From the NCBI RefSeq assembly GCF_014207745.1, contig NZ_JACHJB010000003.1, forward strand, positions 1,054,001 through 1,118,000: a stretch of 64,000 nt of DNA, read 5' to 3'. The stretch comes from Nonomuraea muscovyensis. Lineage in GTDB: Bacteria > Actinomycetota > Actinomycetes > Streptosporangiales > Streptosporangiaceae. This document shows, in pieces, positions 3,395 through 22,300 of the stretch. Each line of letters starts with the position of its first letter. Position 1 is the first letter of the stretch. The notes under the pieces are model-generated. The model had not been told where the DNA came from, ran no database searches, and worked only from the letters and a program-made list of their open reading frames with translations. Position numbers and translations under genes: made by a program.

Positions 3395-3430
3395 GGGCAG
3401 TGTGGTGCACCAACCCAAGAACTCCACGGG

Positions 3431-3536: not shown

Positions 3537-3564
3537 GAGTTCAAAACCGTGCCGGTGAGCCCGA

Positions 3565-4929: not shown

Positions 4930-4938
4930 CTTGCCCTC

Positions 4939-5133
4939 CTAAGCTGCGGTCTGCTCGAAGGTGCTGAGCCAGGCGTCCAGGTCGCAGCGGCGGACCTTGC
5001 GCTTGCCGTTGGGGAGTTTCAGGGACCTCGGGCCGCGGCCGGTGTTCAGCCAGCGGTAGAAGGTGGACTTCGGGACATCGATCTCGTCGAGGACCTCGGC
5101 GATGGTGAGCATGGTCTTGGGGCGCGTTGGCAT
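4939..5133 (-). CDS. xis: Excisionase, MerR-like helix-turn-helix protein
   Basis: This small basic protein (about 64 residues) contains MLTIAEVLDEIDVPKSTFYR, a MerR/excisionase-type helix-turn-helix, followed by the wing KLPNGKRKVRRCDLDAWL. Such proteins steer the integrase toward excision. The gene sits directly upstream of int with only a few bases between, so the two are co-transcribed. A GTG at 5142 is an alternative start; ATG at 5133 has better spacing from the AAAGG upstream. Confidence 0.88.
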   Translation of the reverse strand: MPTRPKTMLTIAEVLDEIDVPKSTFYRWLNTGRGPRSLKLPNGKRKVRRCDLDAWLSTFEQTAA

Positions 5134-5178
5134 GATGGTCACTGCCTTTCAGGCATCGTGATCGGTGCGGGTGATGTC

Positions 5179-5211
5179 TCGGCGGTTGTGCTTGGCGGCT
5201 GGTCGCCGAGG
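5179..5211. repeat. Duplicated hairpin element, copy 1 (before xis)
   Basis: This 33-base segment has CTCGGCG and CGCCGAG arms around a loop of 19 bases. The same segment recurs without change at 7619-7652, and both copies lie a short way upstream of a leftward gene start (xis and prim-pol) next to a shared TGCCTTTC stretch. A regulatory role (attenuator or shared operator) is inferred. The remaining gap bases (5212-5307) show no gene. Confidence 0.6.
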
Positions 5212-5307
5212 GTGTTCACAGGTGGATATGGCGGGGGGAGCCGTCCCAGCCGTCCCAGGGTCATTTCCGCAGGTCAGGCGCGGGACGGCTTGATCGGGCG
5301 GGACGGG

Positions 5308-6485: not shown

Positions 6486-6509
6486 TGGGTGGTGCTCCTT
6501 GATCGGTGT

Positions 6510-7580: not shown

Positions 7581-7618
7581 GCTGGCAGTGCCTTTCCTCG
7601 TGATCGGGGTGGGGCGGC

Positions 7619-7652
7619 CTCGGCGGTTGTGCTTGGCGGCTGGTCGCCGAGG
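7619..7652. repeat. Duplicated hairpin element, copy 2 (before prim-pol)
   Basis: This is the second copy of the inverted-repeat element at 5179-5211, in the gap between ssb and prim-pol. The match extends with lower identity into the sequence before the gene start (TGCCTTTC and GTGATCGG). Its position suggests a cis-acting control or processing site shared by two genes of the element. Confidence 0.6.
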
Positions 7653-7679
7653 CCGTATCCCGTTGCTGTGCTGACGGCG

Positions 7680-8126
7680 TTAGAACGGCGGCTTGTCGTC
7701 CGCCGGAGCGGCGGGCGCCCACGGATCAGGTGCGCCGCCGTCATGGCTGCTCGGGACCTTGCGCGCCGCCCTCACGGGCTTGGCGGTGGCGAACCGCAGG
7801 GAAGGGCCGATCTCATCGACGGTCAGCTCGAAGACCGTGCGATGGTCGCCCTCGCTGGTCTCGTACGTACGCATCCGGAGCTGTCCTGAGGCGATGACGC
7901 GGATACCTCGGGTGAGCGACTCGCAGACGTGCTCGCCGAGGTCGCGCCAGGCCGAACAGCGCATGAACAGGGCCTCGCCGTCTTCCCACCGTTCGAGCTG
8001 CTTGTTGTAGACACGCGGGCTTGAGGCGATGGTGAAGGTGGCGACGGCCGTACCGGTCTGAGTGAAACGCAGTTCGGGGTCGTTGGTCAGGTTGCCGATG
8101 ATGGTGATGCTGGTCTCGCCGGACAT
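7680..8126 (-). CDS. ssb: Single-stranded DNA-binding protein of the element
   Basis: The 148-residue protein has the OB-fold sequence ITIIGNLTNDPELRFTQTG, with the typical GNLTxDPELR opening, and SPRVYNKQLERWEDGEALF. It ends in DDKPPF, the acidic-aromatic tail that recruits partner proteins. It probably protects single strands during replication or transfer of the element. GGAAGG precedes the ATG. It is shorter than the usual chromosomal actinobacterial SSB and has no long Gly-rich linker. Confidence 0.93.
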   Translation of the reverse strand: MSGETSITIIGNLTNDPELRFTQTGTAVATFTIASSPRVYNKQLERWEDGEALFMRCSAWRDLGEHVCESLTRGIRVIASGQLRMRTYETSEGDHRTVFELTVDEIGPSLRFATAKPVRAARKVPSSHDGGAPDPWAPAAPADDKPPF

Positions 8127-8153
8127 GCGGGGTTCCTTCCGTTCGAGCGGGGA

Positions 8154-8372
8154 TCAGTGGCTGCCGTCGCGGTACAGGCGGCGGGCGTAGACGTAGAGTT
8201 GCCAGCCGAGGCGTGGCCGCATGCCGGTGCCATTGCAGGCGCGGCAGGTGCGGTTCCGGCCGCCAGGGCGGCAGTGCAGGCAGGTGCCCCAGGGCGAAAC
8301 GAGGCAGAACAAGCCGTAACCGATAGTGACGGTTGGTAGGCAGACGACGAGAAGGGTGATGGCGGTAGCCAT
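8154..8372 (-). CDS. Small membrane protein with paired CxxC motifs
   Basis: The 72-residue protein starts with one hydrophobic segment (about residues 3-28), followed by CLHC and CRACNGTG, a short zinc-ribbon like a single DnaJ-type repeat. No enzyme family is recognised. Genes like this are common between ssb and the transfer gene of AICEs, so a minor transfer or maintenance role is possible. The gene reads in the operon direction. Confidence 0.65.
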   Translation of the reverse strand: MATAITLLVVCLPTVTIGYGLFCLVSPWGTCLHCRPGGRNRTCRACNGTGMRPRLGWQLYVYARRLYRDGSH

Positions 8373-8461
8373 GTGGGCCTCCAGGGCTGATTCCCGGGTT
8401 TTAGCAGGTGAGGGTCTAGGCGCTAGATCGCTGGTAGAGGGCCGTTTAAGGCTCTAGGCGA

Positions 8462-8501
8462 GCCTCTAGACCTAGAGGGATCTGCCTCTAGGTCTAGAGG
8501 C
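8462..8501. promoter_or_regulatory. Strong inverted repeat just after traB
   Basis: The arms CCTCTAGACCTAGAGG (8463-8478) and CCTCTAGGTCTAGAGG (8485-8500) are exact reverse complements around a 6-base loop, and each arm is itself nearly palindromic. Further CTAGG/CTAGA units lie at 8414-8460. The site starts 11 bases beyond the traB stop. It could be a terminator, or the clt-type locus that double-strand transfer ATPases bind; the clustered short CTAG units favour the second, as inference only. Confidence 0.65.
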
Positions 8502-8511
8502 GATCGGAGCC

Positions 8512-10743
8512 CTACGAAGCCCGCCCTCGATCACGCTGTGCGACTGCGGTGGTGATGTCGTCGCGGGCCACGCCGATGCGGTTTGCGCCCTTACCGCCGC
8601 CCTCGGACGTGCCCCACACCTGCATGGTCTTGATCCCGTACGGCTTGAGGGCGGTTGTGAGCTGGGCGGTCTTCGCGCCGCCTTCCAGCCCCGCCCACGC
8701 GCCGTAGACCTCGGGCCGCAATTCGGCCAGGCGATCGACGATGACCTCGTTCCACACCTTCGCCTCGGCCGGTGGGACCACGGCCAGGATGTCGGCCAGC
8801 AGGTCGAAGCTCGGCGTCACGTGCTCCGGTGTCTCTCCGAGCGGATGCCGGCCCAGCACTCCGACACTGGCTCGCAGGGCATGCGCGCGCTTGGCGATGT
8901 GCTCCGTGGCAGGCGTGTCCAGGTACGCAGTACGCACCACCTTCGGCATCGGAGTCGCGCCGAGCAGGTAGCCGATGCCGGCGTCCACCTTGGGCTGGAA
9001 CACTGTGGCTCGGATGCCGTTCTTATAGGCCGACGTACCGAGGATCATGTCGTTTTCGAGCTGGCCGGCCACCCGCAGGCAGAACCGGATGGTGACGTTC
9101 GCGCTGATGCCGGTGGGCAGGCTGTCCTTGTCCGGCCGCTGGGTGGCCAGCATCAGGACCACGCCCAGGGCGCGCCCCAACTTGATGATGAACTCGGCGT
9201 CCTCCCCTGCCTTCGCGCCGAAGTCGGGATGCGCGAACAGGTTCTGGCACTCGTCGAAGATGGCCACCAGCGGGTGCAGCCCCAGCGAACGCCGGTCGGC
9301 GATCTGCCGGGTGACCTTCTTGTCCGGGCACAGGTCTGCGGGCAGGGCCTTGAGAGCGGCGGCACGGCGCATGACCTCTTTGCGCAGCAGCGTGAGCGAG
9401 TCAGCGGCATAGGCGATGGCCTCATCCTCGATGCCAGAGACGTAGCGATGGCAGTTCTGTTCATGCGGGTCGAGGTCGCCGGTGCCCTTGAGCTCGTGAA
9501 TCCACAGCTCGGCGGACGGGTCGAGGGCCGCGCCGGAGGCCAGCACCCGCACCGAGGCGGTCTTGCCCTGCCCGGGCTGCGAGCCGATCAGGATGTTCTG
9601 TTCGATGACCGGCACTACGATGGCGCGGCCTCGCGGGTCACAGCCGAACGGGATGCCCTTGAACACGTCGTGCGAGCTGGCCTTGACCAGCGGGGACTTC
9701 ACGACGGTCTTGGACAGGTCTTTGTCTCCCACCCAAAGGATCAGTCGTCCCTCGTGAACGGAGCTGTCGCCCTCGGGCCAGATGCAGCCCAGCGGACGGC
9801 GCAGTGCCGAGGCCATCCGGTCGCGCTTGTCCATCACATCGGCCACGGTCACGCCGTACGGCAGATCGATGTCCGCGCGCCAGCCAGGGCCGTCCCGAGT
9901 GATCGGAGCGACGAACCGGATGGCGTCCTTGGGGTTCTTGGCCATCGCCTGATTGATGCCGCCGATGCCGAGCACGGTCAGGGCGCGGACGACGATGTCG
10001 CTGGTCAGCTTCTCCACCGTGGACGGCACCACCGCACGGTCGATCAGTGGCCGGTCGGCGGGCTTGCCGAGGATGCCGAGCGCGGCGATGGCGACCGCGA
10101 ACGCTGCCCACTGCATCGTGGTGGTCTGCTCGGCCATCATGAGACCCACGACCAGCAGCGTGACCAGGGCAGCGCTGGAAATCAGCACACGCAGCCGCAC
10201 GCGGGAGTCCCGTTGCCTGCTGAGCTTGAGGTATACCTCTGGGTCGGCCTTCTGCACGGCGGCCAGCCGTACCGGCTCGCCCTCCAGATCGAACGTCCAC
10301 TTGACGATGCCGCCGACCAGGTGGAGCAGGCCGCGAGGAGCGCGGGCGGTCAGTCGTCCGCCGTACAGCGGCAGGCGGACGACCTGGTACCCGGCCACGT
10401 GCAGGTAGTGGAGACTGACCCACTTGAGAGTCTGGATGGCCTCGGTTCGGGACCGCAGCCACAGCGGGACGATCGGCTGCCGGCTGCGTGCCTTCGCCTC
10501 CAGCGCGGTCCGCCAGTCGCCATCGGTCGGACCGGGTTGGTCGATGCGGACCACCTCGCCTTCAAGGACCGGTCCGTCCGCCGGGCGGTCGTCCGAGTCG
10601 CACCGGTCGGAACCGGGCGGCTGCGGCTGGCGTCCGGCGCGGGCGACGTCCAGGTGAACGATGTCCGCGTCCTTGCCCTCGGGAGCGGACAGGGTGGTCC
10701 CGTCCTCGTCCTCGTGGTTGGGGTCGTCCTGGTGATGGGTCAT
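8512..10743 (-). CDS. traB: FtsK/SpoIIIE-type conjugal transfer ATPase
   Basis: The protein of about 743 residues has two hydrophobic segments in VLISSAALVTLLVVGLMM and WAAFAVAIAALGILG, then the motor domain: Walker A LIGSQPGQGKTASVRV, Walker B LVAIFDECQNLF and LMLATQRPDKDSLP. The end (TTALKPYGIKTMQVWG) resembles the DNA-recognition winged helix of TraB. TraB-type proteins move double-stranded DNA between mycelia. The open frame extends to 11157, but ATG at 10743 overlaps the stop of the upstream gene (ATGA) and removes a low-complexity shadow stretch, so I place the start there. Confidence 0.92.
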   Translation of the reverse strand: MTHHQDDPNHEDEDGTTLSAPEGKDADIVHLDVARAGRQPQPPGSDRCDSDDRPADGPVLEGEVVRIDQPGPTDGDWRTALEAKARSRQPIVPLWLRSRTEAIQTLKWVSLHYLHVAGYQVVRLPLYGGRLTARAPRGLLHLVGGIVKWTFDLEGEPVRLAAVQKADPEVYLKLSRQRDSRVRLRVLISSAALVTLLVVGLMMAEQTTTMQWAAFAVAIAALGILGKPADRPLIDRAVVPSTVEKLTSDIVVRALTVLGIGGINQAMAKNPKDAIRFVAPITRDGPGWRADIDLPYGVTVADVMDKRDRMASALRRPLGCIWPEGDSSVHEGRLILWVGDKDLSKTVVKSPLVKASSHDVFKGIPFGCDPRGRAIVVPVIEQNILIGSQPGQGKTASVRVLASGAALDPSAELWIHELKGTGDLDPHEQNCHRYVSGIEDEAIAYAADSLTLLRKEVMRRAAALKALPADLCPDKKVTRQIADRRSLGLHPLVAIFDECQNLFAHPDFGAKAGEDAEFIIKLGRALGVVLMLATQRPDKDSLPTGISANVTIRFCLRVAGQLENDMILGTSAYKNGIRATVFQPKVDAGIGYLLGATPMPKVVRTAYLDTPATEHIAKRAHALRASVGVLGRHPLGETPEHVTPSFDLLADILAVVPPAEAKVWNEVIVDRLAELRPEVYGAWAGLEGGAKTAQLTTALKPYGIKTMQVWGTSEGGGKGANRIGVARDDITTAVAQRDRGRAS

Positions 10744-11144
10744 GATGTGTGCACCTCGTCTGACTTGCTGGTCACGGGGTCGTGGGACGCGGTCGTTGTC
10801 TTGGCGGATGAGGCCGCGTCCCATGTGGCGGTCAGGGACGATGCGCGGTCGGACCGCTGCTCGTCCGGTCGGTCTGCGGGCGTGCTGGCGGCGGTCGGGA
10901 TGTGCGGTCCGTCCGCCTCGGTGATGCCGAGTTCTGCGCGCCAGGTAGCGGCGAGCAGTTCTGTCCGGTCCTCGGGGAACGTGCGCTGGGCCAGAACCTC
11001 GACCAGCAGCATCGCCGTGATGGCCTGGTTGCGGTCGAAGGTTCGTCCGGGGTAGCCCGTGACGCTCCATCGGTCGCCGCGGAGTTCGGCCACGTTCAGG
11101 CATGCGTCGGACGTCATGCGCGTGTCGGTGATGTTCAGCGTCAT
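10740..11144 (-). CDS. Hypothetical protein of the transfer operon
   Basis: The 134-residue soluble protein has an ordered N-terminal half (VAELRGDRWSVTGYPGRTF, LLVEVLAQRTFPEDRTELLA) and a low-complexity Ser/Thr/Asp-rich tail. I do not recognise a family. It overlaps traB by four bases downstream and the DUF2637 gene upstream in the same way, so it is tightly coupled to both and probably assists transfer. Confidence 0.75.
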   Translation of the reverse strand: MTLNITDTRMTSDACLNVAELRGDRWSVTGYPGRTFDRNQAITAMLLVEVLAQRTFPEDRTELLAATWRAELGITEADGPHIPTAASTPADRPDEQRSDRASSLTATWDAASSAKTTTASHDPVTSKSDEVHTS

Positions 11145-12076
11145 CAGGCGGCCTCACCGTCCGGTACGGGCTCTGTCTTCAGATGCGCCAGAAGCGCTCC
11201 CGCCCGATCGGTCGAGATGCTCTGCCCGTGGCTGCGGATGGCGTCTCGTAGCCGGTCACGGGTCAGCGGCTCGCCCTGAGCTTCGAGGTCGGCGGCCACG
11301 CGCCGTCCCAGCGGTACGAGATCGCTCACGTTCAGCGGTGGCGTCTTCCTGGGTGCGCGAAGACTCAGACGCGGCTTGCGGGGCGCGGCCGGCAAGGCCG
11401 GCGGATCGTCGGGGACCGCCCGCACTTGCACTGCGACGTCTCCCGGCGTGAGTTCGCCGAGGCGGTACAACGCTCGTTCGCGGCGGGTGGCCTTCCAGTG
11501 CCAGAGGCGGCCGTACCGGTCCTGCAGCTCCGTCTTGGCCAAGACGCGTTCGCGTTCCCGTCCGAGAGCCTCCGGGTAGCTGCGGATCTCCCAGAGCACC
11601 ATGCGCCGCCACAACACGGCGGTCGCCAGCGGCGCCAGCAGCCAGCGGGAGCGGCGGATGCCGTCCATGTGATCGGGCCGGGCCAGTTCCGCGAGCTTCC
11701 TGACGACATGCGCGCCGACCTCGACGGCGATGACCCACAGCAACGGAAGCAGCGCGTGGGCGACGACGGCGAACCAGTCCGCACCGAGGTACGCGGCCAC
11801 ATTCAGGTAGACAGTCGCGCCGGTCAGCGCCCACGGGATGAACCGCAGCCAGCCCAGCCGCATGCAGAGACGGGCCAGCACGATGTCCAGGGCGGAGAAC
11901 GCGGCGATGCCCAGGTCGATGCCGAGCGGCACCGTCCAGGCGAACCACCCGAAGGACGGTTCGGCCGCGCCGGCCACCCTGTCGAAGCTGTTGACGAACC
12001 CGAGGACGCCGAGTGCTCCGGTGACGGAAGCCGTGATGGCGATCGCTGCCCGTTCTTCCCTGGTCAGAGCGTTCAT
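11144..12076 (-). CDS. DUF2637 membrane protein (spread-protein type)
   Basis: The 310-residue protein has about four membrane helices in residues 10-125 (for example ASVTGALGVLGFV, FAWTVPLGIDLGIAAFSALD and FAVVAHALLPLLWVIAVEV), with an Arg-rich cytoplasmic C-terminal half. DUF2637 proteins are a hallmark of AICEs and plasmids and are linked to spreading of the element between mycelial compartments. Both ends overlap the neighbours by four bases or fewer. Confidence 0.88.
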   Translation of the reverse strand: MNALTREERAAIAITASVTGALGVLGFVNSFDRVAGAAEPSFGWFAWTVPLGIDLGIAAFSALDIVLARLCMRLGWLRFIPWALTGATVYLNVAAYLGADWFAVVAHALLPLLWVIAVEVGAHVVRKLAELARPDHMDGIRRSRWLLAPLATAVLWRRMVLWEIRSYPEALGRERERVLAKTELQDRYGRLWHWKATRRERALYRLGELTPGDVAVQVRAVPDDPPALPAAPRKPRLSLRAPRKTPPLNVSDLVPLGRRVAADLEAQGEPLTRDRLRDAIRSHGQSISTDRAGALLAHLKTEPVPDGEAA

Positions 12077-12168
12077 GCGGCCACCTCCGCCGCACAGTCC
12101 AGGCGGATGCCGATGCGGTACTGGTCACCGGCCGGGCCACAGAAGCAGGCACGGATGCCGCTTACCAT
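12073..12168 (-). CDS. Very small operon protein (31 aa)
   Basis: A short frame starts with ATG at 12168 inside the WhiB-like stop and ends in a TGA that overlaps the DUF2637 start. The product contains FCGPAGDQYRIGIRLDC. Overlap at both ends is the main evidence that it is translated; the function is unknown. Confidence 0.5.
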   Translation of the reverse strand: MVSGIRACFCGPAGDQYRIGIRLDCAAEVAA

Positions 12169-12491
12169 CAGGCCACCTCCCGCTCTTCCACCACTTCGCC
12201 CGCGAGCTCGTCAGGCGTGCGGCCGGCCCAGATACCCGAGGTCGGGCGGGCCTCCAGCGCGTAGAGCGTGCAGGCGGGCAGGGCCGGACAGGAGGCGCAG
12301 ACCTCTCGGGCGACGGACTCCCGGGCAGCGCGTTCCTCGCTGGTCTCGATCGTTAGCCGCGGGCCGACATGCAGCTCGGGGTCGTACGTGCACTCGGGGA
12401 GCGGCGTTTCGCCGCCCACCTGCCAAGCCGCTTCGACCTCGGCGAGCGACATGCGGGCCGGGTGGAGCGGGCGGTTGATGTTGCGTGTCAT
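12168..12491 (-). CDS. WhiB-like iron-sulfur transcription factor
   Basis: The 107-residue protein carries the four-Cys pattern of Wbl proteins: one Cys in LPECTYDP, then CASCPALPAC (CxxC then Cys), which binds a 4Fe-4S cluster. GIWAGRTPDE matches the G[I/V]WGG turn that contacts the sigma factor. It probably tunes expression of the element. The long insertion before the CxxC cluster is somewhat unusual. It overlaps the 31-aa gene downstream. Confidence 0.85.
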   Translation of the reverse strand: MTRNINRPLHPARMSLAEVEAAWQVGGETPLPECTYDPELHVGPRLTIETSEERAARESVAREVCASCPALPACTLYALEARPTSGIWAGRTPDELAGEVVEEREVA

Positions 12492-12513
12492 CGGCAGATC
12501 TCTCTTCCTGCGG

Positions 12514-12681
12514 TCAGTTGCTCATGGTCTGGACGAACCGCGCGAACGACTCGGACGCGCTCATGAGCAGGTGCACAGCCGCCTTGACGACGGTTGCCGC
12601 TCCCTCCGGGTCCTTCATGGCGTAGAGGACGGCGCAGATGGTGAGGACGGTCGGGAGCACCTTGCGTGGGCGGACGAGCAT
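12514..12681 (-). CDS. Small hydrophobic protein (55 aa)
   Basis: The frame from ATG 12681 to the stop at 12514 gives a 55-residue product with a hydrophobic stretch (VLPTVLTICAVLYAM) and an amphipathic end. GAAAGGG lies before the start. It is the first gene of the leftward transfer operon, immediately after the palindrome at 12701. No function recognised. Confidence 0.55.
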   Translation of the reverse strand: MLVRPRKVLPTVLTICAVLYAMKDPEGAATVVKAAVHLLMSASESFARFVQTMSN

Positions 12682-12700
12682 GCTGAGCCCTTTCGGTTCG

Positions 12701-12720
12701 AGAACCTGCTAGCAGGTTCT
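12701..12720. promoter_or_regulatory. Perfect 20-bp palindrome, probable operator
   Basis: AGAACCTGCTAGCAGGTTCT is its own reverse complement. It lies about 20 bases upstream of the first gene of the leftward operon and about 285 bases upstream of the rightward HTH regulator. A TAGAACATGTACA stretch follows at 12729-12742. It is well placed as the operator of a dimeric repressor that keeps transfer genes off. Bases 12743-13005 show no further clear gene. Confidence 0.7.
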
Positions 12721-13005
12721 AGGAGACATAGAACATGTACAGTCACGGAGAGTCAAGTCACGGGCACCGAAGGTCTTGTGTCCTGCAGGGCTTGCCTCGC
12801 TCGTTCCTGCTGACTCAAGCCTTCCTCGTGTCACGCCCCGGCAACACTGTGCTCACCCCCGGGACTGAAAGCACAGGGGGTGCATATCGGGGGTGATTAC
12901 TTCCTTGACCTGGTGAAACACGGGGCGCAGAATCTGCGAAACGAGGCCCCCGCGACCCTCATCCGCGCCATGATTGCCGAGGCCGTGCTTTTCATGGAGG
13001 TGAGA

Positions 13006-14379
13006 ATGTCCCGTATGCCCAATGTGGCGCTCGCGCATGCTATGCGACGTGCCGATTGTTCAAATTCGGGGCTTGCCTCACGAGTGCGGCAGATTGCCAG
13101 CGAAGAAGGCGTAAGTCTGAGCTGCACGCATGTGGACGTCAAGCGATGGCTCGATGGCGTGAGACCACGCACCGCCACCGCGCGATTCATCGCAGAGGCG
13201 CTGAGCCGGAAAGCCGGCGCGACATTCACTCTCGACGACATCGGCCTGGCCGGCGTCGTCACCCCGGAGACTCTTGAGGCCGCTCTCGCACATGGCGGCG
13301 GGGTATCTGATGTCGGCAGCCGGCTTCTGAGCCTGACACGCCGAGACCTCGCCGATGATCCTGTGGCGATTCAATCCGTGGTCGTCCCAGACGCGTGGGG
13401 GGAAGCCCTCATTTCCTGGTTGCTCTCCCGCCCCGAACCGCTAAAGAGCAGACAGAACGCCAGGCCATCTGTGGGGCAGTGGGACGTACAGGCCATCCGC
13501 TCGACCACCGAGCTGTTCGCCAACATGGGCTTCCAATTCGGCGGCGGTCACGCGCGCTCCGCTCTTATCCAGTACTACAACCGCGAAGTCGTCCCGATGC
13601 TCGACGGCAAGTTCACCGAGCCAGTAGGGCGCGCGCTCTATGCGGCGGCTGCGGAAATCACCGAGCTGGTGGCCTGGACTGCCTATGACCTCGGGCGCCA
13701 CGGTCTGGCGCAGCGGTATTTTCTCCAAGGATTGCGCCTGGCACAGGAGTCGGGCGACCGCATGATCGGCGGTCTGCTACTCGCGGACATGAGCCATCAG
13801 GCCAACTATCTCGGACGCTACAACGAAGCGATCCGGCTTGCCCGCGCCGCGCAGGAGGGCTGCAAGGACGTGGCGACCGCTACCCCCATGGCGTTGTTCC
13901 ATGCGATGGAGGCACGAGCTCACGCCGGCAACGGGGATGAGGCGCAGTGCGCTCATGCACTGCTTGAGGCAGAGAAATTCTTCAGCAAGCGCATCGTCGA
14001 GGACGACCCTCCATGGTCGCGCTACTTCGACGCGGCCGAGTTGGCCAGCGAGGGCGCGCACTGCTACCGCGACCTCAGGGTCCCATCACAGGCGATGCAG
14101 TTCGTCGGTCAGGCAGTCGATCTCTGCGACCCCATGTACGTCCGCACTCTGGCCTTCGACCGCCTGGTGCAGGCGGCCAGCTACGTCCACATAGGCGAAC
14201 CCGCGAAGGCGGCCCTGGTCGCGATGGAAGCGGTCGATCTCGCCGGGCCCCTCAAGTCTGAGCGCTACCTGCGGTACATCCGAGACCTCAAAGCCGAGCT
14301 GGTGGGCTATGAATGCGAAGACTCGGTGCAGGCGTTCAACACCGTCATCGGTGAGAAGTATCCTGCACTGGGCACTTAG
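13006..14379 (+). CDS. HTH regulator with tetratricopeptide-like C-terminus
   Basis: Start: ATG at 13006 follows GGAGG by five bases, which beats the longer frame from 12880. The 457-residue product begins with a DNA-binding-like segment (NSGLASRVRQIASEEGVSL, then HVDVKRWLDGVRPR) and continues as helical repeats (for example YDLGRHGLAQRYFLQGLRLA and NYLGRYNEAIRLARAAQEG). This architecture is common for actinomycete regulators that sense a peptide or partner protein. It is read away from the transfer operon and shares its upstream region and palindrome, so it probably controls it. Confidence 0.75.
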   Translation: MSRMPNVALAHAMRRADCSNSGLASRVRQIASEEGVSLSCTHVDVKRWLDGVRPRTATARFIAEALSRKAGATFTLDDIGLAGVVTPETLEAALAHGGGVSDVGSRLLSLTRRDLADDPVAIQSVVVPDAWGEALISWLLSRPEPLKSRQNARPSVGQWDVQAIRSTTELFANMGFQFGGGHARSALIQYYNREVVPMLDGKFTEPVGRALYAAAAEITELVAWTAYDLGRHGLAQRYFLQGLRLAQESGDRMIGGLLLADMSHQANYLGRYNEAIRLARAAQEGCKDVATATPMALFHAMEARAHAGNGDEAQCAHALLEAEKFFSKRIVEDDPPWSRYFDAAELASEGAHCYRDLRVPSQAMQFVGQAVDLCDPMYVRTLAFDRLVQAASYVHIGEPAKAALVAMEAVDLAGPLKSERYLRYIRDLKAELVGYECEDSVQAFNTVIGEKYPALGT

Positions 14380-15284
14380 AAGGGCCGCCACCGCCGGGGC
14401 GCCTCCGGGTTCTGAAGACAGAAAAGGCGATTACGGAACTCTTGCGCGATGGTCTCGTTTTCGTTGACGTTCTGCATCAACCAGGTCGTCATCTTCAACT
14501 CGTTGATGTCTCTGAGCACGGGATAGCCTTCCCACGCCATGACATCGAAGCCGTACAGCTCAGCGAACCGATCATATTCGGCACGACTGCCCCAGCCCAG
14601 GGTGTGTTCGATGGCCGTGACGGCGAGGTCGGTTTCGGGAGGGCCGAAAGCGAAGCGCTCGAAGTCAATGAGAACCACCGTGCCGTCAACCGCCTTGATG
14701 AGGTTGTCGGAATGGGCGTCACCATGGACAGCACATGAGGCCAGAGGGAAGTTCAGAGTTGCGTAGCCCGCTTGCAACTGTTGATACCTCATCAGCAGGA
14801 ATTGACGTTCCTCATCCGAGAGGACGTCAGTCGCGGAGATGCGTTCCGATACGCGCCCGAGGACGTCGAATTCCGGTAGCGCCAGTTCTGTGGGAACCGG
14901 CATCTGATGGAGCGCGCGAAGAACTGCAGCCAGGTCGTTGAGGTTTGCTGGAGTTCCACGGCTTTCGATGAAGTGCCATAGTGTGACGGGCTTATCCCTC
15001 ACGACAAATGGTTGCTCATGAGCAGTCGTTCGCGCCGCCGGAAGGCTTGCTTCGTTTAACCAAGCCGACACAGCCACCTCCTTGCGAGCGTCGGCCAGCA
15101 CGTCCAGGCTGCGGGCAATTCTCACCACTACTCGCTCGGCCGGCAACACGTACAGAGCGTTCTCGCCGAGACGTATCAGCCGAGCGCCAGCGCTTGTCAG
15201 ACCGGCAACCTGGCATGCGTCTCGAAGGGTCGCCTGCGCTTCATCCGAGGTGAAAGGGATGATGGGCGACTGGGATACCGTCAA
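14376..15284 (-). CDS. Aminoglycoside-phosphotransferase-family kinase
   Basis: The protein (about 302 residues) has the APH/choline-kinase fold: GENALYVLPAERVVVRIA (nucleotide loop), catalytic loop AVHGDAHSDNLI and VVLIDFERFAFGP (metal-binding Asp). The substrate is unknown; family members act on small molecules or protein targets. I choose TTG at 15284: it forms a TTGA overlap with the stop of the GntR gene and is preceded by AAGGGG. The frame is open much further upstream but there it is only the shadow of the GntR gene. Coupled translation suggests a shared job. Confidence 0.8.
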   Translation of the reverse strand: MTVSQSPIIPFTSDEAQATLRDACQVAGLTSAGARLIRLGENALYVLPAERVVVRIARSLDVLADARKEVAVSAWLNEASLPAARTTAHEQPFVVRDKPVTLWHFIESRGTPANLNDLAAVLRALHQMPVPTELALPEFDVLGRVSERISATDVLSDEERQFLLMRYQQLQAGYATLNFPLASCAVHGDAHSDNLIKAVDGTVVLIDFERFAFGPPETDLAVTAIEHTLGWGSRAEYDRFAELYGFDVMAWEGYPVLRDINELKMTTWLMQNVNENETIAQEFRNRLFCLQNPEAPRRWRPF

Positions 15285-15973
15285 GAGAGGCCCCTTGGTT
15301 GCGACGTGACAACACGGCCTCTTCCGGCCCTCTTTTCGATGACCCCTTCGGTTTCCAGCAGTGCGAGAGCTCGCCGCACGGTGACACGGGCGACGCCTCG
15401 CTCCTGGGCGAGCACGTTCTCCCCGGGAAGCACAGCGCCTATGAAGAGCTGCCCACTGGCTATTTCCCGTCGTAGTGCATCGGCGACGTCGTCGGCGCGA
15501 GTCTGTGCATGATCCGGTCCCCCGACGAACCATCCTCTGCCATGAACAGCGGCGATCATCTGCTCGGAGGCCAGTAGCTGAAATGCCTGACGGACGGTCC
15601 CCTTCGACACACCGAACTCCTCCGCCATCGCCGCTTCACTGGGCAGTTGTTGGCCGGGAACGAGCTCGCCGCTCTCGATGCGCTTGCGCAGCCCCTCGGC
15701 GACTGTCTCGTACTGCGTGGAGGCTGCACGGCGGACACCCGGCGGGCCTTCCCCCACGACGCGACGTCCACGGCCGGCCTCGCTGGCCACCAGTCCCACA
15801 CGCTCCAGCTCGGCGACCGCCTGACGAACCGTTCCTCGCGCCACGCCGTATGTGCGAGCGAGGACGGCCTCGGAGGGCAGCAGCGCGCCGGCGGGAGGAT
15901 CCCCTTGGCGAATACGGCTACGGATGTCCTCTGCTATGCGTACGTAGGTGAGACCATCCTTGGCCTTGCTCAT
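15281..15973 (-). CDS. Protein of three tandem GntR winged-helix domains
   Basis: The product (about 230 residues) consists of three successive GntR DNA-binding domains and nothing else. Their recognition helices are in ARTYGVARGTVRQAVAELE, AEEFGVSKGTVRQAFQLL and AQERGVARVTVRRALALLE, each followed by a wing with GRGxxV. GntR regulators normally carry one such domain plus a ligand domain (FadR, UTRA and others). Here no effector domain is left, so regulation must come from the DNA, multimerisation or its coupled APH partner. ATG at 15973 follows GAGGGAG. Confidence 0.88.
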   Translation of the reverse strand: MSKAKDGLTYVRIAEDIRSRIRQGDPPAGALLPSEAVLARTYGVARGTVRQAVAELERVGLVASEAGRGRRVVGEGPPGVRRAASTQYETVAEGLRKRIESGELVPGQQLPSEAAMAEEFGVSKGTVRQAFQLLASEQMIAAVHGRGWFVGGPDHAQTRADDVADALRREIASGQLFIGAVLPGENVLAQERGVARVTVRRALALLETEGVIEKRAGRGRVVTSQPRGLS

Positions 15974-16159
15974 CGCGCTCCCTCGCCGAGGCACTCTGCC
16001 TCCAGAGTAGGACGGACGAGCCCGAACCTGCGAGGCATTGCTGCCTCACACTTCTCGCAGTCCTTCCCTCTGAGCAGGAGAAGGACGGCGCTTGTCTGTC
16101 GGCACCGTCGGTCTACATGAACGGACGCAGTGATCCTGCCGCAAGCCGGATAGGCCCGA

Positions 16160-16471
16160 CTACGCCGCCGGCTCGCTGCATGCTCTCCGGTGGCGGCTCC
16201 TGGGCTCGGCGGTGACGCGGCTCATGTGCTTGCGCCGATGTTCGTTCTCATGCTCGGCGATGAGGGCTTCCCAGACCAGACGTGCCTGCCTATAGAGCCC
16301 TCTACCGGTCTCCTCGAAGCCTTCAGGGTCTTTGGCCCGAAGGACGAGGAACTGCCCTCCCTGGCAGGCCCACTCGTATGCACCGCAGCATGAGGTCTGG
16401 GTGATCCGAATGCGATCTCGTGTGGGCCTTGCATACGGCTCCCACGTCGGGCCGGACGCATCAGGAGCCAC
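16160..16471 (-). CDS. Hypothetical protein (103 aa)
   Basis: GTG at 16471 lies seven bases after AAAGG and overlaps the stop of the preceding gene. The product has a beta-rich core (TSCCGAYEWACQGGQFLVLR) and a helix (RQARLVWEALIAEHENEH). Family not recognised. It ends a three-gene leftward unit behind an ATPase-like gene. The gap to the triple-GntR gene (15974-16159) holds no recognisable gene. Confidence 0.6.
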   Translation of the reverse strand: MAPDASGPTWEPYARPTRDRIRITQTSCCGAYEWACQGGQFLVLRAKDPEGFEETGRGLYRQARLVWEALIAEHENEHRRKHMSRVTAEPRSRHRRACSEPAA

Positions 16472-16781
16472 GACACGGCCTTTCGAAGGCGTACTCCTGC
16501 AGGTAGCGATGGACATTGCGGCGGCTGCGCTGCCGCGTGCACACGAAGGCGAGTTCCAGCGGCGTTTCGGCCGTCAGCTCTTGCCTGATGCCGAAGGCGA
16601 TCTCCTCGATGGTGGGCTTCGGCAGTGGTCTCGCGCGCCAGCCACCTTGAGCGTCGCGCCAGACGTAGAACCGTCTGAACGCGCCCCGCAGGTCATCGAG
16701 CAGGGCGTACGCGGTTGATCCTCCGGCGCCTACGCCCAGCTCCTGCCCCGCCCTGCTCTGATGGTCACTACCCGAGGTCAT
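16461..16781 (-). CDS. Hypothetical protein (106 aa)
   Basis: The start at 16781 is inside the end of the ATPase-like gene (14-base overlap), which points to coupled translation. The product contains FRRFYVWRDAQGGWRARPLP, KPTIEEIAFGIRQEL and a basic end. No known family; it may serve with its upstream neighbour as a small regulatory unit. Confidence 0.6.
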   Translation of the reverse strand: MTSGSDHQSRAGQELGVGAGGSTAYALLDDLRGAFRRFYVWRDAQGGWRARPLPKPTIEEIAFGIRQELTAETPLELAFVCTRQRSRRNVHRYLQEYAFERPCRGS

Positions 16782-17133
16782 GACGCGCCTCCCGGCGTTC
16801 ACGCAGGATGACCCACGTCCGATGCCCACTGTGATCGCCGGAAGCGCCGAAGGACGTCGTGACGCTGGACAGTTCGGCGGTCTCGAAGCCGCCGGCGTGG
16901 TCGCAACCGCCCGGATCGTGAACCTCGATGCGCAGGCTGTCGTGCGCCACATCGATTCGCGTGTAGATGAGTTCGCCACGTTTGGTCCGTCGGATAGCAG
17001 CGGACATCAGGGCACGGGTCACCCGCTCGGCGTCGCTTGCGAGATCCGGTCGTTCAGCCTGAGCGATGCCACGCGCCCAAACGGCCGCGCTTTCGATGCT
17101 GTCCGGGATGGGCGGTAGGGACTGCCGATACAT
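16768..17133 (-). CDS. HATPase-like (anti-sigma kinase type) protein
   Basis: The 121-residue protein resembles the compact HATPase_c_2 domain of Streptomyces-type serine kinases: RVTRALMSAAIRRTKRGE takes the place of the N-box helix, then LRIEVHDPGG corresponds to the G1 box (DxGG/DPGG). The N-box Asn and G2 box are weak, so it may bind rather than hydrolyse ATP. It is divergent from the GntR/UTRA gene, with shared operator-like repeats between them. Confidence 0.6.
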   Translation of the reverse strand: MYRQSLPPIPDSIESAAVWARGIAQAERPDLASDAERVTRALMSAAIRRTKRGELIYTRIDVAHDSLRIEVHDPGGCDHAGGFETAELSSVTTSFGASGDHSGHRTWVILRERREARHDLG

Positions 17134-17136
17134 CAA

Positions 17137-17213
17137 GCGCTAACCTTCTCGGGTAGGTTTAGCTGCGTCCCGATAAGCTTGAAGCTTCCCGGTAAGGCTG
17201 TCAAGCTACCCGC
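17137..17213. promoter_or_regulatory. Divergent promoter region with three similar 10-mers
   Basis: Three copies of a motif of the type AAsCTwCCCG occur here: AAGCTTCCCG, AAGCTACCCG and, on the other strand, AACCTACCCG. They sit between two divergent starts and right against the GTG of the GntR/UTRA gene, which has no ribosome-binding site and may be leaderless. They are the likely binding sites of that repressor. Confidence 0.6.
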
Positions 17214-18023
17214 GTGAACCGAGAAGACGAGCGCCACTTGTACCTGCGAGTCGCCGACCAACTGCGCGAACGCATCAGGTCAGGAGAGCTGCGGGAAGGA
17301 GATCGCCTGCCCTCCGTACCGGGGCTCGCGGCCGATCTCGGCATCTCACGCTCCACCGCGGCCGAGGCGCTGAAGGTGCTCATCTCCGAAGGTCTCGCCG
17401 TCGCACGATCCGGGGCCGGAACGTTCGTTCGACTCCCTCGCGAGCCGCAACGCCTCATCCGTGCGTGGTACAGAGCGACGCCGTACGGCTCGCCCTTCAT
17501 GCAGGACATGGACCGCCAGGGCCGCGAGGCCAGTTGGGCCTACGAGTCAGAGTCGCTCACGGCGCCAGCGGAGATCCGCGACCGTCTGAGCCTTGGGGAG
17601 CCTGCGGGCGATGAGGAAGATGCGGTTCGGACTCACTATGTCTTCTCGGCGGATGGGGAGCCGGTCATGCTCTCGACCAGCTGGGAACCGCTGTGGCTCA
17701 CGCGCGGGACGCCGATCGTGCTACCTGAGGACGGCATGCTGGCTGGCCGCGGCGTGGCTGAGCGCATGTTGAGCATCGGCATGCCCATTGACGACTGGGT
17801 GGAAGAAGTCGGGGCACGGCCTGGGACGACAGAAGAATGCGAACGGCTACGACACGCGCCCGGCGCGATCGTGGTGACGATCCAGCGCACGTACTACTCA
17901 GGGGAGACGCCGGTGGAGACAGCCAACATCGTGGTACCGGCCGACCGGTTCGCGCTGGTCTACAGCGGCAGGATGGGGCGCGTCTCCGGCACCAACAAGT
18001 CATCTGCAGAGGATGGTGCCTAG
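17214..18023 (+). CDS. GntR-family repressor with UTRA domain (KorSA-like)
   Basis: The 269-residue protein starts with a GntR wHTH (LYLRVADQLRERIRSGELRE, LGISRSTAAEALKVL) and continues with a UTRA effector domain (GREASWAYESESLTAP, RTHYVFSADGEPVML, RTYYSGETPVETA). In AICEs of the pSAM2 type such repressors silence transfer and activation genes. GTG at 17214 has no upstream ribosome-binding site. The repeats directly before it suggest autorepression and control of the divergent ATPase unit. Confidence 0.88.
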   Translation: MNREDERHLYLRVADQLRERIRSGELREGDRLPSVPGLAADLGISRSTAAEALKVLISEGLAVARSGAGTFVRLPREPQRLIRAWYRATPYGSPFMQDMDRQGREASWAYESESLTAPAEIRDRLSLGEPAGDEEDAVRTHYVFSADGEPVMLSTSWEPLWLTRGTPIVLPEDGMLAGRGVAERMLSIGMPIDDWVEEVGARPGTTEECERLRHAPGAIVVTIQRTYYSGETPVETANIVVPADRFALVYSGRMGRVSGTNKSSAEDGA

Positions 18024-18295
18024 CGTCGGCCTCCGCCCCTGGCTCCTCCGGGACCGGGCGGGAAGCTTCGGCATCCCCTTGCCGGTAGCGGCACACGGCC
18101 GGTGATTCGTGTTGTTGGGGTAGCCGGGCGCCTCGGCGTGGTTCAGGCGCCGCGGTACTTCTGCCTGATTGAGATGGCCTCTTCCTCTGTAACCTCGTTC
18201 GGCATGTAGCTCAGCGCCTGTCGAGCTCGTCCATGATTGCGTGCCCGGAGACGCGAGCTCAAGTGCCGAACTGGGTGAGCTAGTGGCGTGGCCGG

Positions 18296-18679
18296 TCAAG
18301 ACCTCTGAAGGTCGACCAAGCCATCTTGATGGTCGTCGCGGAAGATGGGTCCTTCGCTGCCAGGGCAAGGGCGAACCTCCCCGCCAACGAAGAGTTCCAG
18401 AGACCACGCCCAGAACGGCGCCCATGCGAGTAAGCGTCCGCCCACCTGGAACTCCTCGGCAAGCCATGCGATCAAGGGGCAAGCAGCAGCCTGTGCTCCA
18501 GTGAAGTGACCCAGCACCACGATGGCTTCACTGCGGGTGTGCACGATGCGGACACGGACCATGTGCCGCATCTTCCGTACCGCTGCGGTGAAGTGAGCGC
18601 CCACCACGACGGCATTCTCCGCTGGGAGGCTAGTGATCAGTGAGTTGGGCGGCAAAGTACAGGTCACACCCGATCCCAT
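18296..18679 (-). CDS. Possible hypothetical protein (127 aa)
   Basis: This frame codes for a product with well-mixed composition (LITSLPAENAVVVGAHFTAA, RIVHTRSEAIVVLGHFTGA) that does not look like a shadow. No ribosome-binding site or family is visible. The surrounding DNA (18024-18295 and 18680-18842) shows only short broken frames, so a gene remnant is equally possible. Confidence 0.35.
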   Translation of the reverse strand: MGSGVTCTLPPNSLITSLPAENAVVVGAHFTAAVRKMRHMVRVRIVHTRSEAIVVLGHFTGAQAAACPLIAWLAEEFQVGGRLLAWAPFWAWSLELFVGGEVRPCPGSEGPIFRDDHQDGLVDLQRS

Positions 18680-18842
18680 CTTGTCTTCGTCGCACAGACA
18701 TGATCATGAGCGGCTGCTCTCGTTGTGCCGGATTTCTGTCACAAGAGCGCATTGCTGCGCTCGCCGATGAAAAGAGGTCTATGTGATTCGGATCGGCTAA
18801 CCGAATCCCAAATTTCGAAGGCGTCGAAGCTGATGGGCGCAA

Positions 18843-19235
18843 TCATGTATGCGAGCCACCCGATACGCTCCGATGGCGAAACCAATTCCGAGAGGCGCGA
18901 CGCGAAAGATTGTATATAACTAGGACTGCAAGCAGAAGGTCAAGTATCGCTGCGACGTTCTTGGTGGCGACGAGTAATAGTGACCATATGCCAACGATGC
19001 CTTCAACGATAAAAGTGCTAATCCAGATCGCTTGGCTTGGTGACGAGAACCGCCATGCAAGTAGGGCAAGCAGCGCGATCGGTAAGACGGTGAAAGCCGA
19101 GAGTGGGATGATGTAGCGCACCCACAAGTCATCGATCTCTGTTGCGATGATCGTGAAATATAGCGCAAAGCTAAGAATGTGTATTCCGACTTGCGCCCAT
19201 ATGTTTGTCCTGGCGATCCGTACTGCGTCGGGCAT
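18843..19235 (-). CDS. Small four-helix membrane protein
   Basis: The 130-residue product has four hydrophobic segments (around VGIHILSFALYFTII, IIPLSAFTVLPIALLALLA, IWISTFIVEGIVGIWSLLLV and ILDLLLAVLVIYNL) and a basic tail. GAAGG precedes the ATG. The codon use is richer in A and T than the AICE backbone. It lies right behind the large secreted-protein gene in the same direction. A protective (immunity) role for the neighbour is possible but is inference. Confidence 0.65.
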   Translation of the reverse strand: MPDAVRIARTNIWAQVGIHILSFALYFTIIATEIDDLWVRYIIPLSAFTVLPIALLALLAWRFSSPSQAIWISTFIVEGIVGIWSLLLVATKNVAAILDLLLAVLVIYNLSRRASRNWFRHRSVSGGSHT

Positions 19236-19261
19236 CTTTACCTTCTTTCTGGACGATGGTT

Positions 19262-19289
19262 GGGGGCCGCTCGTGTTGAGCGACCCCCA
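19262..19289 (-). terminator. Hairpin between secreted-protein gene and membrane gene
   Basis: The arms GGGGGCCGCTC and GAGCGACCCCC pair with one mismatch around a five-base loop, 26 bases beyond the stop of the large gene. No U-run follows, which is usual in high-GC actinomycetes. It would partly separate the two transcripts. Confidence 0.5.
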
Positions 19290-19314
19290 CCGTGCGTTAC
19301 GTGCCTACTGGCTG

Positions 19315-22300
19315 CTAGATTTCCTTGGTAGTGGCATGACCCCACGGTGACCGAATGGTTAGAGGGTCACCTAGATCCCATCCGTCCTTTTTGAAATTGA
19401 CCTGAGCCTCTACAAGATGCCTCATGGCAGTGAATGAACATAGCGGGAGATCGCAGGTTGCTGGGAATGAGCGGATACGATCCGGTGGGGGAATCATCAC
19501 CTTTGCTGTCCCCGCGGATCCTGAGATCTCGAACGAGGCGGTGTCCTTGGTGGTGGAGAACCCACCTCCCGGCACTCCGCTCGCGTCTATCGAGAGAGTG
19601 CCTGACGTGAACATAAAGGCGGCGGTCGTCTTCGCCCTGATAGTAGCGTTTTTGATCAGAGCTTTATTCTTCTTATTCTTTTTGAAGCCTGAAGTGTAGC
19701 TGACAATGGCCCAGCCTCGGAGCTCTTCGATCTGCATCTCGGTCGGGCCGTTGACTAGCCAGTTTCGATACCCTCTGTATCGAAGAACGCCTCCTGCTGT
19801 CAGCTTCATACCGGATGTAGGTGAAATAGAACCGTGACTGTCGAATCGGCAGACGTAATTAGCGCATTTATGCGTTGCGCCACTGACTACGTTGCCGTCT
19901 GGACCGCGACTCCCGCCGGCATTCCCGTTAGCCTCGTCCTCGGATCCGTCGAGAATCCAATCCATGCCGCTCGTGTCGATCTCTGGGCTCACGGATACAT
20001 GGCGTACGGCTCCACAATCGGTGAACGAGAAGTCGTACTCCTCTGTCATCGTGGTTGGCTTGGGGAACTCTCCGCCATTTGTGTCCGTTAGCACATCGGT
20101 CCAGCTGCGCTCCAGCGTCCCCCGAAGTGTAACTGTGCCGTCTGGCGCATTGTATGGGAGAACATTAGTAAGAGAGACCGTTGTGTTCTCCCTCCTCGTC
20201 TTACTCCTCTTAAGCTCTTCGCTTTCGGCAACCACGGCTGGATTCGTAAGTGCAAGCTTAGCTGCAGCGGGGTTGAGCGGATCGAGTGCAGAGGCGGAGG
20301 CGGTTCGGTCCTTCGGAGAGATATTGGAGCTGTAGGTGCTGGCCCAGACGTTAGGGTAGCTCCCGTCTACAACGCCGGCCTGACGGTAGTAATACTCTTC
20401 GATCGTTACCGTAAGATTCTGCCTCGTCGGCGCCGTGCAGTTAGATGTCGGGGGAACTACAACGGCTTTGGGTGTCACTGCGGTTGATTCCCAATCACCG
20501 CGACCGAAACTTGTGCGGGCTGCAACACGAATCGTATACGCGGTGCCGTTGGTCAGCCCAGTTATTGTGGCCGAGGGCTCCGTGGTCTGTAATGTGCGGA
20601 CCGCATTTCCGCTGGGATCGACTGCTTCAACATCGTACCCATCGAGAAGTGACATGGACCCGTTACTCGCAGGCACTGCCCACGTGGCTACCGCGCCGCC
20701 ATCGCCTGCTTGGCTGCGCAGGTCCTGCACCTTGCTCGGAGGGCCTGGCGGTGCGTAGGTCACCATGAGGGAGGGCTGGGTCGGAGCCGTGCTTTCTCCG
20801 AGGGTAATGGGTGTAGCACTGTCCGATTTTAGCAGAAGCCACGTCTGCTCGTCGCCCGTAATATCCACTTTGGGTTGTTCTGCATCTATCGTGTACTTAG
20901 AGTCTGCATTTGCAGTTTCGACCAGATCGGTCGTTTTGGTCCCCGCTGCGACTTGTGAATCAAGTCGGGTGATTGTCACCTTCGCATCGGCTGGGCACGC
21001 CCCGCCTGAACACGTAGCAGAGCCCAAGTCGAGCAGAGACTCGACAGGAATCGCCCCATTGGGAATCTCGCCCGCATTGATCTTCAGCGCAGTGAGTTGG
21101 CTGTCGGTACCCTGACCGCCAACCTGGATAGCTGAACTGTCAGCCAACGTACACGCTGCGCCATCGCAGGCTGCGGGATCCGCTTTAGCTGTTTTGACAA
21201 CGAAGCTGTCCCGGCTGAGTATGACCTGGCGGACAGTGCCAACAGGATCTGGCGGCGGGGGAGTGCCAGGGGTGCTGAAACTGATGGGTGTGGTCTTGGA
21301 CGTACACACCTCGTTGACCGCGCTGACGGATACAGATCCGGTCTCGGTGGATGAGGGGAGGGCGGCGCAGGCCGTCATCTGCCACTTATAGGTAGTGCCT
21401 GGTTGGACCGTGTTCGCCGGGACCTGGAAGGAGGCCCGGACGCCACCACTGACGGTGCGGGTGCCGATGGGCGCAGATCCGACCGGTGCCCCCGTGTTGT
21501 CGTACAGGTAGTACTTTGCCAGGACTGGTCCCCCAGAAGGCCGGTTGACCACGCCCGACAGGATCGGCTGCATGGGTTCGGCCGTGCCGGTTTCGGTGTC
21601 GGTCGGCAGCATGGGGGCGTCGCTGGTGATTCGGTAGGCCGGGCTTTCATTGCAGGAGGGCGGGGTGACCCCGGAACGGCAGGCCTTGACAACGAACTTG
21701 AAGCTGGCCGGGTTGTCGAGGGCGAAGAGCTTGTCGAGCACTTGGCCGGAGGGGATGTTGTTGTGGGTTGTGGTACCGGGAACGCCGACCAGGGTGCGGA
21801 TTTCGTTTGCGGTCAGTGCCCGCTGATAGACGTGGACGTCGTCCACAGATCCGTTGAGGTTGTCAGCGAGGACACGAGCGCGGCCGATCTCAAACGCGCC
21901 TTGGGCGTTCCAGCCCACCGTGTGGTCGCGTTCGGAGGACAGTACTCCGTCCACGTAAAGGCGGATCTTGCCGGCGGTCTTGTCGTACTGCGCGGCCAGG
22001 TGCGTCCATTCGCCGATCTTGGCCAGGTCCTCGGACTGGACCACGGTCTCGTGGATGCTGCCGGTGACGTCGTCCCTGATCATGGACAGGATCCAGCGCT
22101 GATCGTATTCGGCAGCGTCGGACGTGTTGTAAGCCACGGTGAAGCCGGGCTGGTTGACGCCCATCTGGGACATGACGGTTTGCTCGATGGTGCTGCTGTT
22201 CAGCCGGACCCAGGTGGTAGCGGTGAAGCTGTCGTCGGTGTTGATGACTGGGCTGCTGGTGGCGGCATGGCCGCCCGTGAACGTCACTGCCTGGCCGAGC

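Follow-up and report, generated by a model that had tools for sequence, protein, structure and literature searches.

A three-domain GntR protein encoded with an APH-fold kinase: a candidate repressor of transfer in an actinomycete integrative and conjugative element

We analyzed 64,000 nucleotides of the Nonomuraea muscovyensis genome (assembly GCF_014207745.1, contig NZ_JACHJB010000003.1, positions 1,054,001 to 1,118,000), referred to here as the window, which form part of contig 3 of a 9.23-Mb genome. Our subject is a pair of minus-strand genes within it: one for a 230-amino acid (aa) protein of three GntR winged helix-turn-helix (wHTH) domains (15281-15973) and, downstream of it, one for a 302-aa kinase of the aminoglycoside phosphotransferase (APH) fold (14376-15284). 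Convergent with the kinase gene, on the plus strand, is a gene for an NsdA-family TPR-like regulator (12880-14379, with an alternative ATG start at 13006; NCBIfam NF053720, NsdA_fam_reg, E 2.5e-115), and an operator-like array lies between this NsdA-like gene and a transfer operon. The surrounding genes are those of an actinomycete integrative and conjugative element (AICE), in which the GntR-kinase pair is a conserved, closely spaced unit.

The tandem-GntR gene and the kinase gene

The GntR protein matches PF00392, the GntR wHTH family, in three stretches (E 1.3e-51), and its AlphaFold2 model (pLDDT 83.8, pTM 0.43) has wHTH units at residues 9-72, 87-150, and 159-222; on the DNA, the domains D1, D2, and D3 lie at approximately 15755-15946, 15524-15715, and 15299-15490. 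Because the pTM is low, the mutual placement of the three units is not fixed. Together they occupy residues 9-222 of 230, with no C-terminal effector or oligomerization domain of the HutC, FadR, or MocR types, and UTRA, FCD, and other effector-domain families are absent from the protein's Pfam matches. Another 17 Pfam families hit the protein, mostly helix-turn-helix models whose best stretches fall inside the same wHTH regions. These results bear out the first-pass annotation of this locus, which had described three complete GntR domains lacking an effector domain. The gene is further supported by a 12-sequence alignment and by mean pN/pS, which over seven loci is well below 1 for the GntR protein (0.25; 0.20, 0.23, and 0.30 per domain) and for the kinase (0.22); the NsdA-like neighbor gives 0.15 over six loci. 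A gene caller based on codon usage missed the GntR gene and shortened the kinase, so homology was used for gene calls.

The coordinates, strand, and reading frames of the pair are as first annotated, and so is their junction: the kinase TTG start at 15284 overlaps the GntR stop codon (TGA at 15283-15281, read together as TTGA), with AAGGGG standing 6 nt upstream of the TTG. Across related loci the gap between the two genes varies from a 4-nt overlap to tens of bases, and the overlap is therefore a rule only among the closest relatives.

To describe conservation, we built a profile from twelve three-domain proteins and ran it against a sample of 54 Nonomuraea genomes (E ≤1e-40); G-numbers below denote the genomes compared and L-numbers the loci. 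The full three-domain protein occurs in 14 genomes, two-domain proteins at nine loci in eight genomes, and a one-domain protein at a single locus (G297) that has no kinase. More distant tandem-GntR genes of the genus, some of them associated with HD phosphohydrolase genes, fall under the E cut-off and outside this count of 23 three- and two-domain loci. The kinase gene is downstream in 22 of these 23 close relatives, comprising 13 of the 14 three-domain loci and all nine two-domain loci. It is absent in G289, where an orphan three-domain gene stands among chromosomal genes, and broken in G272 and G301. In the latter two genomes an intact three-domain gene stands beside a kinase gene that is divided between two frames (L071 in G272, L111 and L172 in G301), and G272 retains the array described below. 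Because the three-domain open reading frame (ORF) recurs in 14 of 54 genus genomes, in four other genomes of the family, and in Plantactinospora, in each of these last cases together with the kinase, it is not a sequencing merge of separate GntR genes, a possibility the first-pass annotation had raised. In a tree of single domains, built without support values, D1 of the three-domain proteins groups with D1 of the two-domain proteins that precede an APH-type kinase.

The kinase matches PF01636 (APH; E 2.8e-20). The residues H187-G-D189-x4-N194 and D207 (HxDxxxxN...D), from which catalytic activity would be predicted, are invariant in alignments of 29 and 39 kinase sequences, the larger of which takes in most of the smaller. 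Its AlphaFold2 model is confident (pLDDT 93.7, pTM 0.88), and the nearest structures in profile and fold searches are AmiN and other APH-type kinases, with identities of at most 23% among the matches listed. A phmmer search of the PDB with the kinase, which profile and fold searches could match, gave no match; likewise, a single kinase sequence used as query of genome contigs found no relative, and an alignment query did.

An operator-like array ahead of the transfer operon

The array (AGAACCTGCTAGCAGGTTCTAGGAGACATAGAACATGTAC, 12701-12740) contains three half-sites, R1 (12701-12710), R2 (12711-12720), and R3 (TAGAACATGTAC, 12729-12740), of which R1 and R2 form a perfect 20-bp palindrome. It stands 19 bases upstream of a minus-strand 55-aa ORF (12514-12681), the first gene downstream of the array and the head of the whiB, DUF2637, and ftsK genes; a similar small ORF is found at this place in each of the three two-domain elements read. 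The core of the array is conserved in elements of Acrocarpospora, Planobispora, and Planomonospora, and two-domain elements carry CCTGTTCTATACCTGTACAGG at the same place. CAGGT and TAGAAC are separated by 1 nt in the compact array of two-domain elements and by 11 nt in three-domain elements, a difference of one helical turn (10 bp). Some three-domain loci (L067, L094) lack the third half-site, R1, so that the match between the number of domains and the number of sites is not strict.

We scored each locus by whether [TC][AG]GAACA[TG]G occurs in the 450 nt upstream of the NsdA-like gene, a rule set after both array types had been seen. The motif is present in all 14 non-redundant three-domain loci and in all eight two-domain loci (from seven genomes), and in none of 73 rows that have an NsdA-like gene and no visible tandem GntR (60 + 13, with L078 and L103 being the same contig). 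Thirteen of the 73 rows and four of the eight two-domain loci were fetched as a test after the rule had been fixed. The rows without a tandem GntR originally numbered 82, of which nine were duplicates of scored loci (L087, L089, L091, L092, L095, L097, L098, L100, L164), and the first scoring, duplicates included, covered 22 three-domain and five two-domain rows. Loci where the upstream region is missing or the NsdA-like gene is incomplete or absent were left unscored (L093/L177, L096/L176, L099, L111/L172, L141, L161, L192, L203, L207, L072).

The same association was seen in whole genomes. The three-domain array (at most one mismatch) occurs in 11 of the 54 Nonomuraea genomes, at one site each, and all 11 are among the 14 that have the three-domain protein; in G298 the pattern located the array on a different contig from the three-domain gene. 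The two-domain 21-mer, searched with up to two mismatches, occurs in eight of the 54 genomes at nine sites, all exact, on the contigs of the nine two-domain GntR-kinase loci. Reversed control patterns had no site in the 54 genomes.

The array adjoins a presumed promoter of the transfer operon. A -35-like TTGACT is at 12751-12756 on the minus strand, and in 22 of 22 loci, read by eye, TTGAC lies ahead of the array on the strand of the transfer operon. At each of the eight two-domain loci, TTGAC is followed after 18 nt (six loci) or 17 nt (two loci) by a TATACC that lies inside the array, an overlap that would be expected of a repressor site. DasR, a GntR protein of the HutC subfamily, consists of a single wHTH and an effector domain. 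The core of the two-domain array, GGTATAGAAC, is HutC-like: it is of the GGTnTAGAnC type and resembles the DasR consensus site A(G/C)TGGTCTAGACCA(G/C)T (PMC4398421), although that site, in the passages cited, is a 16-bp palindrome and the sites here form an array.

A degenerate pattern for the whole palindrome performed no better than shuffles and was dropped. Separately, a different conserved element of GTTCAC-type repeats and a GGGGGTTCA...TGAACCCCC-like inverted repeat lies upstream of the NsdA-like gene at nine loci of Streptomyces and Streptantibioticus, which have no tandem GntR (L110, L113, L116, L123, L135, L139, L142, L159, L104); it may be the NsdA-like protein's own site.

Partners of the kinase and alternative explanations

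We surveyed the genes around the best 80 of 176 confirmed kinase relatives, taken as named loci. A convergent NsdA-like gene is within 100 nt of the kinase in 68 loci, farther away in seven, and absent in three, and a contig end cuts two. A tandem GntR is upstream of the kinase in 18 loci (15 three-domain, three two-domain) and none is visible in the remaining 62, three of which (L103, L107, L120) are on contigs that start within 450 nt of the kinase. The kinase-NsdA linkage spans Streptomyces, Saccharothrix, Actinoplanes, Pseudonocardia, and others, and at two loci (L085, on a Streptomyces plasmid, and L075) the two genes overlap by 4 nt on one strand. One element region of L075 (5063-7008 and 9224-12214) has two kinases of the family, one after a two-domain GntR and the other being the one that overlaps the NsdA-like gene. 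In 12 listed kinase loci without a tandem GntR, no common upstream gene was apparent by size and place. With 68 of 80 loci having the NsdA-like gene and 18 of 80 a tandem GntR, we therefore take the kinase to belong first to the NsdA-like regulator.

Two or three GntR domains were detected by a domain scan at 19 additional loci, of which 15 (L047-L052, L054-L061, L082) have an HD phosphohydrolase gene (183-225 aa) downstream. Kinase and HD gene thus share one slot after the tandem GntR. In the three HD elements read further, the HD gene faces a convergent NUDIX gene, which an XRE gene adjoins. The other four loci (L053, L083, L085, L086) have neither an HD gene nor a kinase directly downstream; L053 (1054-1968) is another three-domain GntR, outside the kinase group.

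These surveys divide the proposals of the first-pass annotation. Co-occurrence of tandem GntR and APH genes holds from the side of the GntR genes (22 of 23 close relatives) and is uncommon from the side of the kinase, where 18 of 80 loci have a tandem GntR; the neighbors of the kinase are nonetheless not unrelated genes, given its linkage to the NsdA-like and tandem-GntR genes. The suggestion that the kinase replaces a lost ligand domain of the GntR protein is not supported, in view of the 62 kinase loci without a visible tandem GntR, the 68 with a convergent NsdA-like gene, the kinase broken beside an intact three-domain gene in two Nonomuraea genomes, and the HD gene found instead at 15 of 19 other tandem-GntR loci.

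Probably, on the evidence of sequence, the tandem GntR is an effector-less repressor of the transfer operon of the AICE, encoded with a co-translated kinase that is tied first to the NsdA-like regulator. The GntR-kinase pair would then be part of the control region of the AICE. The three-domain protein would bind the half-site array that overlaps the promoter ahead of the 55-aa ORF and the whiB, DUF2637, and ftsK genes, and in this position would keep conjugation off, its three covalently linked winged helices doing the job that other GntR proteins do as dimers. The kinase, made beside the GntR protein, would function first with the NsdA-like regulator, probably by phosphorylating a small molecule (less likely a regulator) and so setting the state of the NsdA-like protein. 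A tentative extension starts from the spacing of the half-sites in the two array types: the number of winged helices may be matched to the operator, with the covalent chain serving as a ruler that needs neither dimerization nor a ligand domain, and with de-repression by the NsdA-like protein and the APH kinase, a module swappable for HD and NUDIX proteins. If correct, the proposal names a specific operator and repressor through which transfer control in one group of AICEs can be tested, and the natural series of two- and three-domain proteins would show how tandem winged helices read DNA when they have neither a ligand domain nor a dimer domain. The results also suggest that a family of kinases labeled aminoglycoside phosphotransferase in plasmid records is a regulator's companion rather than resistance cargo.

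Several observations weigh against this proposal. The array is missing in three of the 14 three-domain genomes: G289, which has no kinase or NsdA-like gene within 9 kb of its three-domain gene; G301, where the kinase is broken and the contig ends 2.7 kb further on without an NsdA-like gene; and G308, where the NsdA-like gene is truncated. An earlier, stricter half-site rule matched one of five two-domain rows, and five of the 73 rows without the motif (L078, L084, L103, L107, L120) start less than 450 nt upstream of the kinase, where a tandem GntR could not be seen. The promoter spacing in three-domain loci is non-canonical and a consensus scan did not call it. No HutC-like core was found in three GntR-HD loci, and the GntR-HD elements have scattered AGAAC-type words rather than an array. 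GntR proteins often autoregulate. When a half-site matrix was run upstream of the GntR gene itself, L067 alone of 12 loci stood out (1 of 200 shuffles, compared with 12 of 200 for L066 and 22 of 200 for L063), and the other 11 gave no clear array-like site. Autoregulation through the same motif was rejected for now on this ground. A palindrome just upstream of the GntR start, CCTCGnCGAGG, is nonspecific, with 29 matches (at most one mismatch) in the window. Finally, array and GntR gene sit together on a single element, in loci that are related to one another, so that their co-occurrence cannot count as independent proof and Fisher values should not be taken for probabilities.

Alternatively, the NsdA-like regulator, encoded divergently from the transfer operon, might bind the array, with the tandem GntR acting elsewhere; the position of the array between the NsdA-like gene and the operon fits this, as do the lack of a clear site at the GntR promoter and the three arrayless genomes, in which the NsdA-like gene is not seen (G301), truncated (G308), or absent (G289). 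We consider it unlikely, given the HutC-like core of the two-domain array and the absence of the motif from all 73 rows with an NsdA-like gene and no visible tandem GntR. The NsdA-like proteins are similarly divergent: identity to the window's protein ranges over 44-46% where the GntR has two domains and over 39-47% where the array is missing. In a midpoint-rooted tree, two-domain NsdA-like proteins stand beside ones without a tandem GntR, and two- and three-domain loci are not exclusively joined (support is 0.58 for a 28-member clade with the window and L073; that of the two-domain node was not read). Because divergence is similar with and without the array, and in view of this tree, the NsdA-like protein does not explain the array. 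Other proteins were considered as binder and rejected: L067-L070 (18-19.5 kb each) keep the array, yet a single-domain GntR was not detected in them, and one is present without the array in L101, L106, L165, L188, L189, and L191; WhiB-like matches occur in L078 and L081, which have no array. The tandem GntR thus appears to be the simplest binder.

The remaining alternatives concern the kinase. In the model closest to the first-pass annotation, GntR protein and kinase would form one switch, with the kinase, made in fixed ratio, controlling DNA binding by phosphorylating the GntR protein or making its ligand. The pairing of the two genes is what recommends it, and it is improbable on the same grounds as the lost-ligand-domain proposal: most kinase loci show no tandem GntR, distant tandem-GntR genes are mostly accompanied by HD hydrolases, and G272 and G301 have a broken kinase gene next to an intact GntR gene, with the array kept in G272. 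Somewhat less doubtful is the idea that the slot after the tandem GntR holds enzymes, kinase or HD, that make or destroy one shared nucleotide-like signal for transfer immunity. HD replaces APH after two-domain GntR proteins, NUDIX and XRE genes are on the opposite strand in the three HD elements read, and the mdp-nud-xre cluster is described, along with the role in transfer immunity of the Nudix protein Pif of pSAM2, in PMC3218068 (passages cited). Yet APH adds a phosphate where HD removes it, no common substrate is known, and no ORF tested in the window matches NUDIX. It is very improbable that the kinase gene is cargo for antibiotic resistance and lies behind an AICE regulator by chance, despite its APH fold and the naming of "aminoglycoside phosphotransferase" among AICE resistance cargo (PMC9513070, passage cited). 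The only NCBIfam resistance model listed, APH_3p, scores 23 bits against a cut-off of 205, identity to solved structures is low as noted above, and the gene is linked to the NsdA-like gene across many genera.

Our search of the open-licence literature returned no account of effector-less GntR proteins in tandem of this kind, nor of one paired with this kinase, in agreement with the first-pass annotation, which knew of no such system. Sequence comparison suggests that the unit is a variant of known AICE control. KorSA/SCO3932 is likewise an AICE-encoded GntR regulator for which control of element genes through nearby sites has been proposed; in the passages cited, SCO3932 combines one wHTH with a UTRA ligand domain and binds the promoter of its own gene (PMC8584621), whereas the window protein consists of three wHTH domains without UTRA, and the promoter of its gene shows no clear site. 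UTRA occurs in the window on a separate single-domain GntR-UTRA gene of KorSA-like architecture (17214-18023, plus strand; Pfam GntR + UTRA). Both the mdp-nud-xre cluster and NsdA-like regulators have been described for AICEs (PMC3218068). The cluster resembles the pair in placing a small phospho-enzyme gene beside AICE regulators, and a two-domain GntR precedes HD in the three HD elements read; where the cluster has HD, NUDIX, and XRE genes, the window has genes for an APH kinase and an NsdA-like regulator. The kinase's convergent neighbor belongs with the NsdA-like regulators by its NsdA_fam_reg match, and the cited passages of PMC3218068 do not mention a kinase partnership. Compared with AmiN, an amicoumacin kinase, and APH(2''), the window kinase is under the resistance-family cut-off and linked to a regulator gene.

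The surrounding element

The integrase-like, HTH_17, DUF3631, Prim-Pol, single-strand binding, DUF2637, WhiB, and FtsK-like genes around the pair, all on the minus strand, identify the element as an AICE of the Prim-Pol type. They encode an integrase-like protein (3565-4929; PF00589, E 1e-4, 22.6 bits, below the cut-off of 27.1), an excisionase-like HTH_17 protein (4939-5142; PF12728), a DUF3631 protein (5308-6513; PF12307), a Prim-Pol replication protein (6510-7580; PF09250), a single-strand binding protein (7680-8126; PF00436), and an FtsK/TraB-like DNA translocase (8512-10824; 31-94% identity in 14 of 20 loci, with an EccC-type match below cut-off). There follow a 134-aa protein without a Pfam match that is conserved in related elements (10740-11144), a DUF2637 membrane protein (11144-12076; PF10935) that is presumably Spd-like, and a WhiB-like protein (12168-12491; PF02467). 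The gene set of an AICE is thus present: integrase (by its below-cut-off Pfam match), excisionase, replication protein, FtsK-type translocase, and Spd-like protein. Among direct repeats of at least 18 nt in 1500-20500 there was no att-like pair. The ORFs scanned between 12.2 and 18.0 kb encode WhiB, NsdA-like, APH, GntR, and GntR-UTRA proteins and small proteins without a Pfam match; the cluster of HD, Nudix, and XRE genes is not found among them, and no ORF tested in the window has a NUDIX match.

Two repeat features adjoin or lie within the element. A CRISPR-like array at 1033-3394 consists of 33 copies of a 37-nt repeat (at most three mismatches), separated by spacers of about 33-39 nt. It ends about 170 bases from the integrase-like gene, and the repeats closest to that gene are the most degenerate. 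In the excision and replication region, a 34-nt sequence with inverted-repeat ends is exactly duplicated at 5178-5211 and 7619-7652.

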